A stretch of DNA of 15,846 bases from Fidelibacterota bacterium (GCA_021734045.1 JAIPJR010000061.1:1-15846); one strand, 5' to 3'. Counted from the stretch's first letter, positions 2,990 to 9,780 are shown. The notes: generated from the letters alone by a model not told the origin. Numbers and translations are program-made.

Positions 2990-4960
2990 TTACACCCGCT
3001 CCCGCGTCCACGCTTCCAAACCGCCCGCTAAAACCAACTCCTGGGCCGCTGCGCCCACCGGGCTCAAGGCGTAAGTTTTTCCATCCGCAGTTAATTCGGC
3101 ATTGGCAAAATCCAGCCTGGCCTGAATGGCCGTGCGTACCGTGAGTTTCTCTGTTCCAAACCGGGTTTTCAGGTCATTCACCAACGCCGGCGCTTCCAAC
3201 ACCAGAAAACCATTGTTGATAGCGTTGCGTTTGTAAGTCTCGCTGAAAGACCCGGCCAGCACCAGAGCGATGCCCCGGTATTTCAAAGCGGTGGCCGCCT
3301 GCTCGCGGCTTGAACCGGTACCAAAATTGAATCCGCCCACCAGGATGTCACCTTTTTGCACCATTTTACCAAAAGCCGGATCGTAGTTTTCCATCACCAC
3401 GCCCGCCTGCTGCTCCGGTGTGAAATCGTCCATATAGGTATATTTCCCAGGATAAATACCGTCTGTATTCAGGTTATCCTGATGACAAAAAACCAACTCA
3501 CCACTCAGTGATTCAGGGAATCCGTCCAGAATGCGAACGCCGGCCTTTTGACCAGAGGGCTTGGTGTTCACCTTGATGCTGCCTTTTGTTGCCACATCGG
3601 CAAATTCACCCGGCAGCGCAATTTCACCCGCCACGGCCGAGGCTGCCACCACCGCCGGTGAGGCCAGGTAAGCTTCTGCCGACTTGCTGCCCATGCGGCC
3701 TTTGAAATTGCGATTGGTGGCGGAAATTCCCACTTCCCCGTCCCCCAGGAGCCCGGCGCCCAGGCCAATACAGGGACCACACCCCGGCGGTAAGACCTTC
3801 GCGCCCGCATCAACCAGCGTTTGCCAGTTGCCCCGCTCTTCCGAGGCGGCCTGGACTTCATTGGAGGCGGCAGCAATATAAAATTCCACCCCCGCTGCCA
3901 CCTTTTTTCCGCGTATTACGTCTGCCGCCGCAGCCAGGTCATCTACACGGCTATTCACACAGGAGACCAGGTAGGCTTTTTGAATTTTCACATGGCGCTG
4001 CTGCATTTCCCTAACCGATGTCATGGTTTTCACATGGTTGGGACCGGATACATGGGGCACCACGGTACTCAGATCCAGAGTCAACTCTTTGGCGTAGAAT
4101 GCATCCGCATCGGCCGCCAATCCCTCAGCCGCCAGCGCCGCAATCCGTTGGGCATTCATCCGTGGATGCACGTCATTTTCACTGTCGGCATCAGAGGGCA
4201 TCCCCGCCAAGCCGCGTTTGGCGATAAAATCCGCCCGGTTTTTCAACCAGGTCAGGGCGACATCATCAATGGGAAATACACCCGCCAGAGCACCCCATTC
4301 GGTGGTCATATTGGCGATGGTGAGCCGTTCCTCAAGCGACAAGAAGGCCACACCATCACCCACAAATTCCAGCACATGATTTAACACCTCATCCTGATTG
4401 AAATAGCCGCACAAGGTGATGATCACATCTTTGCCGGTGACGCCGGGACGCAATTTTCCGGTGAGAATGACTTTGGCGATGGGCGGCACCTGCCACCAGG
4501 TTTTTCCCGTCGCCCACAATGCCGCCGCGTCTGTCCGTACCACCGGTGTGCCCAGACAACCCAATCCGCCATACATGTTGGAATGGCTGTCGGAGGCGAC
4601 CACCATGGTGCCGGGCCAGGCGTAGCCCTCTTCGCACATGATCTGATGACCGATTCCCCGTCCGGCCGGGTAAAAATCCACACCCATCTCCTGCGCGAAA
4701 TTTTCAATCTTATGGTACTTGGCCAGATTGGCGTCGCTGGTGTCCTGAACATTATGGTCCAGGGTGTAAACCGGTTGGCGCGGGTTGGCGATTTTCTTCG
4801 CGCCGATGGATTGAAACTTGGGCATCACCGCACCGGTATTGTCGTGCGTCATCACATGCGCCGGTTGGATCATGACAAAATCCCCGGCATGCACTTCCTG
4901 CCCGGCATCCAAATCCACTGCGTAGCGCTGAACGATTTTTTCGATTAATGTCTGTGCCAT
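2990..4960 (-). CDS. Aconitase-superfamily hydratase, Lys4-like (homo)aconitase
   Basis: This 656-residue enzyme is a single-chain Fe-S dehydratase of the aconitase superfamily, acting in the cytoplasm. Visible marks are THDN (38-41), FYPAGRGIGHQIM (96-108), ASDSHSNMYGGLGCLGTPVVRTDAAA (122-147), the cluster cysteines C334 (SCVNSR), C394 and C397 (PPGCGPCIG), TNRNFKGRMG (415-424), and the swivel-domain GTGSSREQAATALKYRG (548-564). From memory, blocks such as MTTEWGALAGVFP and the RGIGHQIM region look closer to fungal homoaconitase Lys4 than to AcnA or AcnB, and the length fits Lys4-like proteins. The substrate could be citrate/isocitrate, homocitrate or a related acid. AAGGTGA lies just upstream of ATG 4960. 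It is last in the citrate-lyase-like cluster, which favours citrate or a close analogue. Its 3' end is duplicated at 2252-2326. Confidence 0.9.
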   Translation of the reverse strand: MAQTLIEKIVQRYAVDLDAGQEVHAGDFVMIQPAHVMTHDNTGAVMPKFQSIGAKKIANPRQPVYTLDHNVQDTSDANLAKYHKIENFAQEMGVDFYPAGRGIGHQIMCEEGYAWPGTMVVASDSHSNMYGGLGCLGTPVVRTDAAALWATGKTWWQVPPIAKVILTGKLRPGVTGKDVIITLCGYFNQDEVLNHVLEFVGDGVAFLSLEERLTIANMTTEWGALAGVFPIDDVALTWLKNRADFIAKRGLAGMPSDADSENDVHPRMNAQRIAALAAEGLAADADAFYAKELTLDLSTVVPHVSGPNHVKTMTSVREMQQRHVKIQKAYLVSCVNSRVDDLAAAADVIRGKKVAAGVEFYIAAASNEVQAASEERGNWQTLVDAGAKVLPPGCGPCIGLGAGLLGDGEVGISATNRNFKGRMGSKSAEAYLASPAVVAASAVAGEIALPGEFADVATKGSIKVNTKPSGQKAGVRILDGFPESLSGELVFCHQDNLNTDGIYPGKYTYMDDFTPEQQAGVVMENYDPAFGKMVQKGDILVGGFNFGTGSSREQAATALKYRGIALVLAGSFSETYKRNAINNGFLVLEAPALVNDLKTRFGTEKLTVRTAIQARLDFANAELTADGKTYALSPVGAAAQELVLAGGLEAWTRERV

Positions 4961-4980: not shown

Positions 4981-5003
4981 AACCACAGATTTCACGGATT
5001 TTT
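4981..5003 (+). repeat. AACCAC-headed periodic repeat, 3' flank of the first GxxExxY gene
   Basis: The copy reads AACCACAGATTTCACGGATT and then TTT. The units CACAGATT and CACGGATT follow each other at about 9 bases. It lies 7 bases from the GxxExxY stop, between that gene and the hydratase start, and points in the plus direction, opposite to the gene. Confidence 0.75.
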
Positions 5004-5010
5004 AAAGCGG

Positions 5011-5379
5011 TTATAAAACCATTCTCTCATGGTTGAGTGAGGCTTCACCAAAATTAATCAGCAAGCCGACTTTTTTTCCGGAAGCTTTCAGATAGCTGAG
5101 AAGCTGCGCCCGTTCTACATCACCCAACTGCTTTATCGCTTTCATCTCAACCACAATTTTATTTTCCACAACCAGATCAAGCTGAAATTCCTTGATTGGC
5201 TTATTCTTGTAGATCACGTGAACCGGATACTGATTCTGAAATTTAAGCCCCTGAGTCATTAATTCTTCCCGTAATGCTGCTTCATAGACAGACTCGATAA
5301 ACCCCGGGCCCAGTTCCCGGTGAACCTCCATGGCACACCCGATAATTTTATAGCTCAAGTCTTTGTATAAAAACGCCAC
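5011..5379 (-). CDS. GxxExxY-family protein (PD-(D/E)XK-like), first copy
   Basis: This 122-residue protein carries the name-giving motif in LGPGFIESVYE and the conserved tail GKKVGLLINFG. The family belongs to PDDEXK_3, a presumed nuclease fold; the candidate active site is D in FQLDLVVENK and the E-x-K of VVEMKA. No biological role has been proven for the family as far as I know. The start is a GTG at 5379-5377, with AAAAGG just upstream. It is about half identical to the second copy at 8116-8493. Both are wedged between metabolic genes of one operon and flanked by AACC-headed repeats, so the gene looks like a mobile or repeat-associated cassette and not part of the pathway. Confidence 0.88.
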   Translation of the reverse strand: MAFLYKDLSYKIIGCAMEVHRELGPGFIESVYEAALREELMTQGLKFQNQYPVHVIYKNKPIKEFQLDLVVENKIVVEMKAIKQLGDVERAQLLSYLKASGKKVGLLINFGEASLNHERMVL

Positions 5380-5392
5380 TGGAAAACCTTTT

Positions 5393-5421
5393 AACCACAG
5401 ATTACACTGATTTCACGGATT
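5393..5421 (+). repeat. AACCAC-headed periodic repeat, 5' flank of the first GxxExxY gene
   Basis: It starts AACCACAGATTACACTGATT and ends TTCACGGATT, that is three units of the CACAGATT type about 9-10 bases apart. It lies directly beyond the ribosome binding site of the GxxExxY gene and has the same orientation as the copy at 4981, so the two form direct repeats around the gene. Confidence 0.8.
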
Positions 5422-5487
5422 AGAAAAAAACAGAAAAATCCAAATACATCACTGCCACGCGTTGATTAAGCACTTTCACAATTTTGA

Positions 5488-5517
5488 CAATCTGTGTCAT
5501 CTGTGCAATCTGTGGTT
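5488..5517 (-). repeat. AACCAC-headed periodic repeat, inverted
   Basis: Read on the minus strand it starts AACCACAGATTGCACAGATG and continues ACACAGATTG. It is inverted relative to the copy at 5393-5421, with 66 bases between them, so the two could form a long imperfect stem. Confidence 0.8.
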
Positions 5518-5632
5518 CCAATCTTCTTTGTGGTTCCTTCTTCATTCGGTCGTTTCGTAAGACATCGTGGGAAGTCCATTTCGATCCGAATCCATTGCCG
5601 TCACACATCAGTAAACCACTTCGCCCACTATT

Positions 5633-5663
5633 TTAATCTGTGTTATCCGTGTAATCTGTGGTT
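5633..5663 (-). repeat. AACCAC-headed periodic repeat, inverted
   Basis: On the minus strand it reads AACCACAGATTACACGGATA and then ACACAGATTAA. It contains three CACRGAT units at 10-base spacing and is the clearest example of the periodicity. Confidence 0.8.
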
Positions 5664-5670
5664 CCATTTC

Positions 5671-5700
5671 TTCTTCGTGTCTTTCGTGTAATTCGTGGTT
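5671..5700 (-). repeat. AACCAC-headed periodic repeat, CACGAA variant
   Basis: On the minus strand it reads AACCACGAATTACACGAAAG and then ACACGAAGAA. Same head and spacing as its neighbour, but the unit is CACGAA instead of CACAGATT. It lies 13 bases downstream of the HD-gene stop. Confidence 0.75.
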
Positions 5701-5713
5701 CCTGCTCTTTTTC

Positions 5714-6259
5714 TTACTTCTTGAACGGTTCAAAACTCACGAAATCCGCATGATGCACAATGATGCTCTCCACCGTTCGGTGTCCCAGGTCGCCCTCTTT
5801 GCTGTGGGTGGCGATGATGTGCTGGACCTCGGCCGGGAGATCAAAACGATCGGCGATTGCCACGCCGCTGAACGGGTGCCGAACGATTTTTCCTGCATCA
5901 CTGGTGGTGAGTTTGCCGTCAGTATCCAACTGGTATTCCAGGAGTTTACCTACATCAATCAAAATCGCACCGGCAATCAGAATATCCCGATTAATGGGCA
6001 TAGCTTCGCGACCAAAATTTGTCTCCATCCGCTCAGCCATATCCACCGCCAACTGGACACAGGTGCGCTTATGGTTCATGAAAGAGACATTCACATCCTT
6101 AATGAGTAATGAAAAAGGAATCGTCTCCAAATCCGCTGCACTAAGAACGCTGTTATCCACGGCGTACACCCAGGCATCGGTGACCTGTTCACGTAATTTA
6201 TCGTCTTTTATCCACGCGATTTCAGGCCAGATTCTCAAAACTTCATTTTTAGTGGACAT
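5714..6259 (-). CDS. HD-domain protein with altered HD dyad
   Basis: This 181-residue soluble protein has the layout of an HD-superfamily phosphohydrolase: H63 (NHKRT), the dyad region AGAILIDVGKLLEY (96-109), H128 (RHPFSG), H152 (ATHSKEG) and VHHAD (168-172). In the dyad the usual histidine is isoleucine (I101-D102), so one metal ligand is missing; other metal-site residues are kept. The substrate is unknown. The frame is open to an ATG at 6343, but AGAAGGG upstream and the start of family-like sequence favour ATG 6259. It lies between citF and the hydratase gene, 87 bases after the citF stop, so it is probably co-transcribed and may serve the pathway, for example by hydrolysing a thioester or nucleotide by-product; that is a guess. 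Confidence 0.8.
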   Translation of the reverse strand: MSTKNEVLRIWPEIAWIKDDKLREQVTDAWVYAVDNSVLSAADLETIPFSLLIKDVNVSFMNHKRTCVQLAVDMAERMETNFGREAMPINRDILIAGAILIDVGKLLEYQLDTDGKLTTSDAGKIVRHPFSGVAIADRFDLPAEVQHIIATHSKEGDLGHRTVESIIVHHADFVSFEPFKK

Positions 6260-6346
6260 AAGGTTATTCCCTTCTGAGAGTGGTTGAGTAAACTTTTTTT
6301 TGCGGTGTCTTCCCGAGCCCGATGGAAATAGAGTTGGCAACATTAA

Positions 6347-7921
6347 TTAAGATACTTTTGGCTTCACCTTGAAAATCGTGTCAATGACCGTTCCATCCAC
6401 CCATTTCACGATGCCGATGGGTTCGTCGGTGAATTCTGGTTTCTCCGGTGCTCCCCCAACCAAATCATCAATCTCAGCTTTGATTTCCTCAATCGGCCGG
6501 ATGGGCAGGCCACTACCTTTGGTCGCACCCAGTAAATCCTGCCGCAGGGGATTGATGGCGATGCCGCGCTCTGTGACAATCACATCAATGAGTTCACCCG
6601 GTCCCACCAGTGTGGTCACCTCGTCTACAATAACCGGAATCCGGTCACGAAAAGCGGGAATCGGTAGAATGGTGCATTTGCTGAACAAACAATTCTGCCA
6701 GCCGCCAATGCCGTGGAGCATTTGCCCGTCTGAGTGGGTTACCACATTGGCGTTAAAATTCACATCCACCTCAGTAGCACCTAACACCACCACATCCACC
6801 ATAGAGGCAAAATTACCCTTACCGTGCCAGTTGTAACTGGTGAAGGGTGAGGTATTCACATGTCCCGGATTTTCCCGCATGGAGCGCACGCCATCCAAAT
6901 CAAATGTCTGGCCATCCAGAATGTAATCGGTAAGTCCCTCTTCCAGCATTTCCACCAGGTATTTGGTGGAACCACCCCGGACGAAGCGTGCTTTCACACC
7001 AGCTGCTTTCATCATCTCCTTCAGGTAAATGGCGAATGCCAGCGACGTTCCGCCAGCCCCTCCCTGAAAGCTGAACCCATCCTGCATAATGCCCGCCGCC
7101 CGGACGAATTTTGCGGTAAGTTCAGCGATGTAGAGTCGGTCTGGTGATTTTGTAATCGCGGTCGTTCCGGAGACGATTTTTTCCGGTTCCCCCACCTTGT
7201 CCAGCACCACCACCGAATCCACATTCTGTCCCTGGATCTGCCAGGGAATGCAGGGAAAGGGCACCAGATTATCGGTTACCACAATGACGTTGTCCGCGTA
7301 GAGCGAATCCACTAACCCAAATCCCAAAAGTCCGCAGGCGGAGGGTCCCCGGTCACCGGTGGCATTCCCGAATGAATCCGCCGTTGGTGCCGCGATAATG
7401 GCAATGTCAATGTGGACTTCACCGTCCTGAACAGCTTGCCAACGGCCACCATGGGAGCGTAATACCGCCAACCCGCGCATTTTGCCTTCCGAGGTGTATT
7501 TTCCCAGGGGGCCATTCAATGAGCCTTCGATGTGGTGAATCACGCCATTATCCAGATGTTTGATAATTGGTGCATGACAGGGAAATGCGGCGCTGGGAAA
7601 CCACATCAATTCCTTCACACCCAATTCCGCAGCCGCATCAAAAACCTGGTTCATAATGAGATCGCCATTCCGGAAATGGTGGTGACTGGAGATGACCATG
7701 CCATCCCGGATACCGGCTTTCACCAGCGCATCTTTGATGGAAGGAACAATTTTGTTACCGTCCAGGGGATAGTCATTGCAACTCCGGATAGGCGGCGCAA
7801 CTCTATTCCCGGTGGGTTTGTATTTCGCAACACCCTGAAATGGTGTTTGAGCTTTGCCGTTAACAATTTTCGGTACCCGACGACCGACAGCATTTTCAAC
7901 GAATTCATATTTGTCTGACAT
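6347..7921 (-). CDS. citF: Citrate lyase alpha subunit (citrate CoA-transferase)
   Basis: This 524-residue protein matches CitF in length and motifs: SHHHFRNGD (79-87), GFSFQGGAGGTSLAFAIYLK in the middle, VRSMRENPGH, VVVLGATEVDVNFNANV, and VTERGIAINPLRQDL near the end. In citrate lyase the alpha subunit swaps the acetyl group on the acyl carrier for citrate, giving citryl-ACP, which the beta subunit cleaves to oxaloacetate and acetyl-ACP. The usual GASGGH-type segment after the SDG motif reads GIGGWQNC here, so the acid handled may differ; citramalate or a similar acid is possible. ATG 7921 follows AGAAGGAT. The partner subunits lie upstream as one fused gene, separated from citF by a GxxExxY cassette. 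Confidence 0.9.
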   Translation of the reverse strand: MSDKYEFVENAVGRRVPKIVNGKAQTPFQGVAKYKPTGNRVAPPIRSCNDYPLDGNKIVPSIKDALVKAGIRDGMVISSHHHFRNGDLIMNQVFDAAAELGVKELMWFPSAAFPCHAPIIKHLDNGVIHHIEGSLNGPLGKYTSEGKMRGLAVLRSHGGRWQAVQDGEVHIDIAIIAAPTADSFGNATGDRGPSACGLLGFGLVDSLYADNVIVVTDNLVPFPCIPWQIQGQNVDSVVVLDKVGEPEKIVSGTTAITKSPDRLYIAELTAKFVRAAGIMQDGFSFQGGAGGTSLAFAIYLKEMMKAAGVKARFVRGGSTKYLVEMLEEGLTDYILDGQTFDLDGVRSMRENPGHVNTSPFTSYNWHGKGNFASMVDVVVLGATEVDVNFNANVVTHSDGQMLHGIGGWQNCLFSKCTILPIPAFRDRIPVIVDEVTTLVGPGELIDVIVTERGIAINPLRQDLLGATKGSGLPIRPIEEIKAEIDDLVGGAPEKPEFTDEPIGIVKWVDGTVIDTIFKVKPKVS

Positions 7922-7944
7922 TATGCATAATCCTTCTAAGACTT

Positions 7945-7983
7945 AACCGCAAAGGCAGCAAAGGGGTCGCAAAGTTCACAAAG
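7945..7983 (+). repeat. AACCGC-headed periodic repeat, CGCAAAG type
   Basis: This 39-base copy starts AACCGCAAAGGCAGCAAAGG and carries GCAAAG units at 8-12 base spacing. It lies just upstream of citF and is inverted relative to the copy at 8067-8105, which has the same length. Confidence 0.8.
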
Positions 7984-8066
7984 AAAATCCAGTTAAACAC
8001 AAAATAAGGCTTTGCATATTCTCTTGTTCACTACCCAGAGAAATAAGAACTGATGACAAGTAACAC

Positions 8067-8105
8067 CTTTGTGTCCTTCGCGTTCATCTTCGTGGCTTGG
8101 CGGTT
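8067..8105 (-). repeat. AACCGC-headed periodic repeat, mixed type, 3' flank of the second GxxExxY gene
   Basis: On the minus strand this 39-base copy starts AACCGCCAAGCCACGAAGAT and ends CACAAAG, mixing CGCCAAG, CACGAAG and CACAAAG units. About 27 of 39 positions match the inverted copy at 7945-7983. It lies 10 bases from the GxxExxY stop. Confidence 0.8.
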
Positions 8106-8115
8106 ATCGATTTTT

Positions 8116-8493
8116 TTACAAGCCATTTACGACTCGCTGAATACCATTTCTGAGAAAGGAAACATTAAAATTGATCAACAATCCCAGCTTTTTGCCACTT
8201 AGTTTCAAATATGTTAGGAGCTGAGCCATATGCACGTCGTTCAAAGCTTCAACTGCCTTAAGTTCAAGAATCAATTTGTTTTCAACTAGGACATCTGACC
8301 GATAACCGGGGTCTAATGTCATACCTTTATATTCAACCGGTAGCAAAACCTGTCGCTCAAATGTAATTCCTTCAAGCTCTAACTGGCGGCAGAGTGCCAT
8401 CTCATAAGCCGATTCTAGCAACCCGGGTCCAAGTGTCTTATGTACCTCCAGGGCAGCCCCGATCACTTGATTAGAAATCTCCTTTTCAGTCAT
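8116..8493 (-). CDS. GxxExxY-family protein (PD-(D/E)XK-like), second copy
   Basis: This 125-residue protein has the motif in LGPGLLESAYE, the candidate nuclease residues D (YRSDVLVENK) and E-x-K (ILELKA), and the tail LSGKKLGLLINFN. It starts at ATG 8493 after AAAGGG. It is a paralogue of the copy at 5011-5379 (about half the residues identical), which suggests separate arrival or old duplication and not a recent copy event. It separates the fused citrate-lyase gene from citF. AACC-headed repeats lie 10 and 29 bases from its ends, both pointing in the gene's direction. Confidence 0.88.
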   Translation of the reverse strand: MTEKEISNQVIGAALEVHKTLGPGLLESAYEMALCRQLELEGITFERQVLLPVEYKGMTLDPGYRSDVLVENKLILELKAVEALNDVHMAQLLTYLKLSGKKLGLLINFNVSFLRNGIQRVVNGL

Positions 8494-8522
8494 TAAAAAC
8501 CCTTTATGTTCTCTGCGACCTA

Positions 8523-8561
8523 CTTTGCGCCCTTTGCGCTCCCCTTTGCGCCTTTGCGGTT
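8523..8561 (-). repeat. AACCGC-headed periodic repeat, CGCAAAG type, 5' flank of the second GxxExxY gene
   Basis: On the minus strand this 39-base copy starts AACCGCAAAGGCGCAAAGGG and contains four CGCAAAG units with starts 8, 12 and 9 bases apart. Its first two bases are part of the stop codon of the citrate-lyase fusion gene. Confidence 0.85.
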
Positions 8562-9780
8562 AATGATTCCCCTCTTGTCGCCAATTAGCTGGTATTATTC
8601 CGGTATCGATGGCCAGTTTAATCGTCCGCATGGCGCGCTTGACCACCGGCGGGTCAATCATTTTGCTTCCCAGTGCCACGACACCCAATCCCTGCTGCTC
8701 CGCTTCGTCAGCCGCTACGACAATTTTTTTCGCCTTTTCGATTTCCTCAGTCGTTGGTGCGAAGGCTTCATGAATGGGCTGGATCTGGCGCGGATGGATA
8801 CAACCCTTGCCGTCAAATCCCATCGCTTTTGCTTCCTGCACCGATTGACGCAATCCGGTATCGTCATTCACATCACTAAATACTGTATCAATGGCCTGAA
8901 TCCCCGCTGCCCGGGCGGCATTCACCAACATTGAGCGGGCAAAAAAGGACTCCCGTCCCTCCACCGTGCGCTGGGTACCAATGTCCGCTGTGTAATCTTC
9001 CAAACCAATGGCCAGTGCTACATTATGGGGTGATGCTTCAGCTACTTCCAATGCCTTCAATATGCCGCGTCCACTTTCCAGAATGGGCATGAAATAAACT
9101 GGTTCGGTCCGGTCAGTTGCTTTCATGATTGCGGCCACCTGCTCATCCACCGCTTTTACCTGGGCGGCGCTTTCCACCTTGGGAATCAGAATCAAATGGA
9201 CATTGTGCGGCACCAGAAACGCCAGATCGTCCAGTCCCCGCTGTCCTTGGTTAATACGCACCATCCGCTCGGCACCAAAAAAATCCAGCGTCCGCAGGGC
9301 ATTCCGCACCAGATAGCGGGCCGCATCCTTCTCTCCCGGCGGAACCGCATCTTCTAAATCCAGAATCACGCCGTCCGGCTTATGAATCCCGGCATTCAGC
9401 ATCAATTTGGGTTGATTGCCCGGCAGGTACAACCGGCTGCGACGAAAGTGCTCGCGGGTCGTGCCATACAGACAATGTTTTTTCATTTCAGGTAAAATTT
9501 CAGTCGCAACATCCGGTTTGGCGCGTTTGATGACGGTTTCAATCCGCGCCTGAATGACCCAGGGTAAAGCGCCAAAATCATCCAGAACAAAATCCCCACT
9601 GGTAATCCCCAATTGGTTGAGACAATCGGTCACCAATATTTTCAGCGAGTTCCCAAACAGAACATCAACCTTACTGTTTACCTGGATGTTCAACGGTTTT
9701 GAACCCGATTGATAACTCACCCGGCAATCGGACCGAATTTTCTCGCCGGTTGGTCCCGCGGTAAAAATGGATTTACTCAT
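8560..9780 (-). CDS. citE: Citrate lyase gamma-beta fusion (acyl carrier CitD + CitE aldolase)
   Basis: This 406-residue protein joins two citrate lyase subunits. Residues 1-90 resemble the acyl carrier CitD: LNIQVNSKVDVLFGNSL, then LDDFGALPWVIQARIETVIKR, matching the CitD core and the DD-x-GAL-x-x-(I/L)-x-AR ending. Residues about 112-405 are a CitE-type lyase of the HpcH/HpaI fold: RSRLYLPGNQPKL, DGVILDLEDAVPPGEKD, MVRINQ, LIPKVESA, AIGLEDYTADIG and GKGCIHPRQI. In classic enzymes these are separate chains. The serine that would carry the CoA-derived prosthetic group is most likely S17 (IRSDCR), although alignment around it is loose. ATG 9780 was chosen over an upstream TTG at 9795. It is the first gene of the cluster. 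CitC, CitG and CitX are not nearby. Confidence 0.88.
   Translation of the reverse strand: MSKSIFTAGPTGEKIRSDCRVSYQSGSKPLNIQVNSKVDVLFGNSLKILVTDCLNQLGITSGDFVLDDFGALPWVIQARIETVIKRAKPDVATEILPEMKKHCLYGTTREHFRRSRLYLPGNQPKLMLNAGIHKPDGVILDLEDAVPPGEKDAARYLVRNALRTLDFFGAERMVRINQGQRGLDDLAFLVPHNVHLILIPKVESAAQVKAVDEQVAAIMKATDRTEPVYFMPILESGRGILKALEVAEASPHNVALAIGLEDYTADIGTQRTVEGRESFFARSMLVNAARAAGIQAIDTVFSDVNDDTGLRQSVQEAKAMGFDGKGCIHPRQIQPIHEAFAPTTEEIEKAKKIVVAADEAEQQGLGVVALGSKMIDPPVVKRAMRTIKLAIDTGIIPANWRQEGNH

Follow-up and report, generated by a model that had tools for sequence, protein, structure and literature searches.

Two small genes of the GxxExxY family lie between consecutive members of a metabolic operon in a Fidelibacterota bacterium (GCA_021734045.1), each bracketed by short repeats, and this arrangement raises the question of whether gene and repeats belong together and, if they do, what moves them. 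The stretch of DNA analyzed here, called the window throughout, is an entire contig of 15,846 nucleotides (JAIPJR010000061.1:1-15846; G000:C26). That the repeats and the GxxExxY gene are one mobile, operon-embedded unit follows from their local association, from the covariation of repeat type with the protein, from near-identical cassettes found elsewhere, from the states of the citE/citF junction among relatives, and from the orientation of the cassettes within operons. On balance, we consider it probable that this unit is a mobile element of ~430-600 base pairs (bp) whose nuclease acts on its own class of repeats. A preliminary description made from the sequence of the window had proposed such a unit, and its interpretation as a whole is partly supported.

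On the minus strand, the host operon runs from a citE-like gene with a citD-like N-terminus through a citF-like gene and an HDIG-domain gene to a homoaconitase-like gene (Table 1), neighbors that make "citrate-lyase/hydratase cluster", the label used in the preliminary description, a fair one. Three copies of the repeat, two direct and one inverted, accompany each GxxExxY gene about 9-30 bp from the open reading frame (ORF), with heads at 4981+, 5393+, and 5517- around gene 1 and at 7945+, 8105-, and 8563- around gene 2. These are the AACCRC-headed copies reported earlier as bracketing each gene within about 30 bases, and their positions are confirmed; two further inverted copies between cassette 1 and the HD-domain gene (5663- and 5704-) had been overlooked. 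The outermost repeats of both cassettes are mutually inverted with their heads facing outward, and complementarity is 78% both for 7943-7983 with 8523-8563 and for 5393-5428 with 5482-5517. The citE-like gene ends in a stop codon (TAA, 8560-8562) that falls inside the outer repeat of cassette 2 (8523-8563). The genome that contains the window has four GxxExxY genes, one of them truncated at a contig end.

Compared over many loci, the repeats follow a common syntax in which a head, NNCCRC, is followed by units of CRCRRA(G or T) with a period of 8, 9, or 10 bp. The words themselves vary among loci even within one genome (e.g., CAGATTACAC, GCAAAGGCGC, GCAGAGTCGC, and CAGACGAACAC). A first search pattern, AACCRCN{1,2}RAAM, was dropped as too loose, its reversed control outnumbering the matches; under a three-unit pattern, 96 of the 245 genomes of the phylum yield 392 copies, as against one match for the reversal of that pattern. 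Strict copies number 14 in the window's genome and at most 52 per genome in the order, counts that a looser definition would raise. The repeat word was not found in open-licence papers, and a subscription paper could already describe it.

Repeats are concentrated at GxxExxY genes. At 36 loci of the phylum, their density under a looser pattern falls from 4-5 per kb in the 150 bp next to the gene to 0.1-0.35 per kb at distances above 600 bp, and the same pattern lies within 200 bp of 27 of the 36 genes (reversed pattern, 1/36). The remaining nine carry divergent versions, judged by eye, and none of the 36 closely inspected genes is free of repeats. At 80 genome-contig loci of many phyla, the density is 2.3-2.5 per kb beside the gene and 0.2-0.3 farther out. 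Strict repeats total 116 in 14 genomes of the order. No more than 300 bp separates 19 of them from a GxxExxY gene or its remnant, where 0.12 would be expected, a distribution far from random; the majority, the other 97, are dispersed away from the gene. A word-blind test takes the 180 bp on either side of each gene and aligns the leading stretch to the reverse complement of the trailing one. Its median score is 29 within loci of many phyla (n=192), versus 17 across loci (n=572) and 16 at 600 bp out (n=166; p ~1e-37), with a median of 19 for direct, non-inverted alignment. The two arms of a locus therefore match one another in inverted orientation, whatever their words, and inverted arms are present at the gene and absent 600 bp away.

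The repeats can be typed by the base after CRCNRA (unit position 7), which is G or T; 37 of 202 loci are untyped. Both types occur in the window, T at gene 1 and G at gene 2. On a FastTree protein tree of 161 loci, repeat type changes 5 times, compared to 31-40 changes in 200 shuffles, and within the phylum of the window it changes 4 times, compared to 24-35. For the 18 genomes that contain both types, 3 changes are observed versus 9-23 under within-genome shuffling, and none of 500 shuffles reaches 3. The unit period follows the protein tree more loosely (31 changes versus 54-68). Flank words were also compared with protein distance in a 5-mer Mantel test; the signal was weak (r 0.07, p 0.016), and the typed test was used in its place.

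Movement was sought as pairs of near-identical proteins in unrelated surroundings. In one such pair from two genera (L193/L194), the proteins are 98% identical and the far flanks are unrelated, with similarity starting around AGTTCACCACTG and stopping around CAGTGGTGAACT, where it reaches CTATTAC on the right. In a single genome (L190), two 98% identical copies lie ~2 kb apart, similarity stops close to the outer heads, and repeat-pair units of the same kind flank the gene on both sides. The citE/citF junction, compared at 17 orthologous places, holds a full cassette in six (G000, G244, G243, G226, G228, and G227), a decayed gene in two (G238 and G240), repeats without a gene in three (G001, which belongs to the window's genus, G235a, and G241, with one arm), and nothing in six (G239, G231, G229, G234, G225, and G235b). 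Cassette boundaries and empty sites agree with the earlier proposal that repeats and protein form one mobile unit. It is highly improbable that the GxxExxY gene simply descends vertically as a normal member of the operon, with hairpins that serve regulation or termination. The copies at citE/citF, 55-60% identical to gene 2, may be orthologs within a portion of the order, and the distribution there may partly reflect one old insertion followed by losses; however, near-identical cassettes at unrelated sites contradict vertical descent, junctions are empty in relatives, and G225 has a T-type cassette at another junction of the same operon (citF/HD, not HD/homoaconitase). At two of the empty citE/citF junctions (L302 and L303, in G239 and G231), an unrelated conserved hairpin (aaacctgttttcgc..aaacaggtttt) is found.

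The cassettes are strongly oriented within their operons. Where genes are present on both sides, both neighbors are co-directional with the GxxExxY gene at 139 of 157 loci and both are opposite at 3. Elsewhere in the 80 genome-contig loci, 63 of 126 ORF triples run in a single direction. Of 317 distinct repeats, 88 begin 3-21 bp past the first base of a same-strand ORF's stop codon, and none begins at -2 to +6; in 15 of the 317, with citE of the window among them, the head triplet supplies the stop codon. Three GxxExxY reading frames (L022, L026, and L033) extend into the downstream repeat, with tails such as TPRSQRPPR. Cassettes occur across many phyla and in at least two archaeal records (L120 and L156), and tblastn of gene 2 turned up no relative in phage records and eight plasmid records.

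Such sense orientation would also suit an RNA element comparable to the intervening sequences (IVS) of 23S ribosomal RNA (rRNA), in which the arms form a transcript stem that is removed by RNase III and are kept for their pairing. The layout is that of the Coxiella IVS, an element 428 nt long that has inverted repeats at its termini, an S23p ORF with heptamer repeats next to it, and excision by RNase III (PMC4990558). This explanation is nevertheless improbable: arm mismatches compatible with G-U pairing on the sense strand show no excess (212 versus 223, p 0.63), gene-less pairs and single arms persist at a distance from the gene, and reaching new sites requires a DNA step.

The main rival holds that GxxExxY and S23p-type cassettes have a common mover outside both: other host or insertion sequence (IS) machinery would move inverted-repeat cassettes, and the GxxExxY and S23p-type ORFs would be interchangeable cargo kept for other reasons. 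We regard it as rather unlikely, yet several observations weigh in its favor or otherwise against a nuclease that works on its own repeats. TIGR02436 (S23p) four-helix-bundle genes (L075-L104) are flanked by inverted periodic repeats of other words (e.g., GTGACGAGTGACGAGT and GTTTGGAGGTTTGGAAG), with a median word-blind score of 30 and 68% of scores at 28 or above, and are sense-oriented in operons in 21 of 26 cases. With AACCRC words at 0 of 30 genes, this family had been taken as a clean negative control, a use overturned by the inverted repeats that the word-blind test revealed. Because TIGR02436 cassettes have the same architecture without a nuclease domain, a nuclease-specific mechanism is weakened and a shared mover of both kinds is possible. 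At the level of whole genomes, mostly incomplete assemblies, 79 of 245 have both gene and repeats, 28 the gene only, 17 repeats only, and 121 neither (odds ratio 20, persisting in size classes of at least 1.8 Mb). TIGR02436, however, is no worse a predictor of these repeats, and repeats occur in 14 of 24 GxxExxY-free genomes with TIGR02436 versus 3 of 114 without it; the co-occurrence is therefore confounded by lineage and was discounted as support. The 17 genomes with repeats and no detected gene do not fit an expectation that repeats occur only where the family is present.

Target-site duplications are not evident at the re-read cassette boundaries. In G240 (L312-L322), ~10 near-identical elements of ~185 bp have conventional ends (CCTGAATAATTC...GAATAATGCAGG), 4 bp YTAR-like duplications, and an inverted CCACGAAG pair inside, and this recent burst, which might have been credited to the nuclease, looks driven by another transposase. 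In G226 (L323-L329), T-type words recur beside a AGAGGCTGTCTCAGAACATGAGGCGGCCTCTTTT hairpin that is conserved and may be the end of an IS. High-copy repeats in both genomes were set aside as cases of nuclease-driven amplification, given the IS-like ends, or ends like those of miniature inverted-repeat transposable elements (MITEs), that surround them. Finally, the covariation may come from physical linkage instead of recognition; since linkage in a moving cassette predicts the same result, covariation shows a co-inherited unit, not binding. Interchangeable cargo, on the other hand, fits poorly with the separate vocabulary of each gene family, with a repeat type that tracks nuclease clade within single genomes, and with GxxExxY as the sole clear ORF cargo between inverted partners in 70 sampled repeats.

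Both proteins score far above the cut-offs of TIGR04256 (35) and PF13366 (22), confirming their earlier assignment to GxxExxY; these are the only two families found in both, and neither is S23p. The AlphaFold model of the gene 1 protein has a mean predicted local distance difference test score (pLDDT) of 95.9, and its top Foldseek matches in the PDB are SSO0001 (E 2.6e-4), which we take to be Cas4, lambda exonuclease, and LHK-Exo. In VIA-align, SSO0001 reaches a Z of 10.0 and the others among the matches listed stay below 8; a profile search of PDB sequences returned no close relative. Residues D68, E78, K80, Q92, and Y96 (D, E-x-K, and QxxxY) do not vary among 32 sequences, which agrees with an active nuclease; with the catalytic D and E-x-K placed on the core fold of the model, the protein is a putative nuclease of the PD-(D/E)XK superfamily. 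Only passing mentions of GxxExxY proteins were found in open-licence papers.

By analogy with REP-associated tyrosine transposases (RAYTs) and the REP doublets forming hairpins (REPINs) that accompany them (PMC2817692, PMC3116915), where REP denotes repetitive extragenic palindrome, we hold with moderate confidence that the nuclease would act on its own repeats. The element would end at the outward-facing heads, insert between co-directional operon genes close after a stop codon, and probably be transcribed together with the host operon. The nuclease most likely recognizes and cuts its own repeat class, and cutting, by whatever insertion chemistry, would allow the cassette, and its inverted-repeat pairs that lack the gene, to be copied or inserted at other sites; with time the gene would decay and the repeats remain. 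More tentatively, these cassettes could be a new minimal class of mobile element in many phyla, in which a Cas4-like nuclease of ~120 amino acids spreads itself and its repeats through a co-evolving repeat code of base and period.

Table 1. Features of the GxxExxY cassettes and their host operon in the window
Feature	Coordinates	Strand	Details
Homoaconitase-like gene, host operon	2990..4960	-	TIGR00139 870.7 bits
Outer repeat of cassette 1	4981..5002	+	AACCACAGATTTCACGGATTTT; T-type, period 9
GxxExxY nuclease gene 1 (putative)	5011..5379	-	122 aa, GTG start; TIGR04256 150.9 bits, PF13366 142.1 bits
Inner repeat of cassette 1	5393..5425	+	AACCACAGATTACACTGATTTCACGGATTA; partner 5482-5517
Outer inverted repeat of cassette 1	5482..5517	-	AACCACAGATTGCACAGATGACACAGATT
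Additional inverted repeat after cassette 1	5631..5663	-	AACCACAGATTACACGGATAACACAGATT
Additional inverted repeat after cassette 1	5677..5704	-	ACCACGAATTACACGAAAGACACGAAG; different word
HDIG-domain gene, host operon	5714..6268	-	
citF-like gene, host operon	6347..7921	-	TIGR01584 496.6 bits, below cut-off 501.45
Outer repeat of cassette 2	7943..7985	+	TTAACCGCAAAGGCAGCAAAGGGGTCGCAAAG; G-type
Inner inverted repeat of cassette 2	8067..8105	-	AACCGCCAAGCCACGAAGATGAACGCGAAGGACACAAAGG
GxxExxY nuclease gene 2 (putative)	8116..8493	-	125 aa; TIGR04256 148.8 bits, PF13366 146.8 bits
Outer inverted repeat of cassette 2	8523..8563	-	TTAACCGCAAAGGCGCAAAGGGGAGCGCAAAGGGCGCAAAG
citE-like gene, citD-like N-terminus, host operon	8560..9780	-	TIGR01588 and TIGR01608

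Elsewhere in the window, a Phd/YefM antitoxin and RelE/ParE toxin pair adjoins the operon (2402-2979) and a SWIM zinc-finger protein of 570 amino acids is encoded at 430-2142. The citD-like domain fused N-terminally to the citE-like protein (8560-9780) is an acyl-carrier domain.

Many genomes carry GxxExxY proteins whose annotation names no function; the link to repeats explains their scattered, operon-embedded distribution and supplies a direct candidate substrate. Variable words on a conserved syntax could let natural variation reveal DNA specificity. If the proposal is true, GxxExxY and S23p cassettes together would represent a broader class of inverted-repeat ORF elements embedded in operons, and enzyme-repeat co-evolution would have a second, independent case beside RAYT/REPIN.

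Among known systems, REP/RAYT (PMC2817692, PMC3116915) likewise has an enzyme gene between two inverted copies of a dispersed repeat, repeats that also occur elsewhere singly and as inverted pairs, and covariation of repeat and enzyme on a tree. In contrast to the PD-(D/E)XK fold of GxxExxY, however, RAYT is a tyrosine transposase related to IS200/IS605; GxxExxY repeats are runs of 8-10 bp units and REPs are palindromes of 20-40 bp; and REPs usually exceed 100 per genome (PMC2817692), whereas strict GxxExxY repeats number from a few to ~50. The single-copy enzyme that the preliminary description carried over from RAYT/REP has no counterpart here, the GxxExxY gene being multi-copy. The 23S IVS with S23p (PMC4990558) resembles the cassettes in its length of ~430 bp, its single ORF of ~120 amino acids between terminal inverted repeats, and its short tandem words beside the ORF, but GxxExxY is unrelated to S23p, the words differ, and the cassettes lie between operon genes rather than in rRNA and lack the wobble signature of an RNA stem. 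MITEs and small IS elements share with the gene-less forms (75-224 bp) short inverted ends and the absence of a gene of their own, whereas GxxExxY cassettes have neither a transposase nor a target-site duplication found at their ends. Cas4, lambda exonuclease, and RecB-type nucleases share the modeled fold and the D, E-x-K, and QxxxY residues; in contrast to them, the GxxExxY protein of 122 amino acids is tied to its own repeats, in a window with no CRISPR or recombination partner gene.

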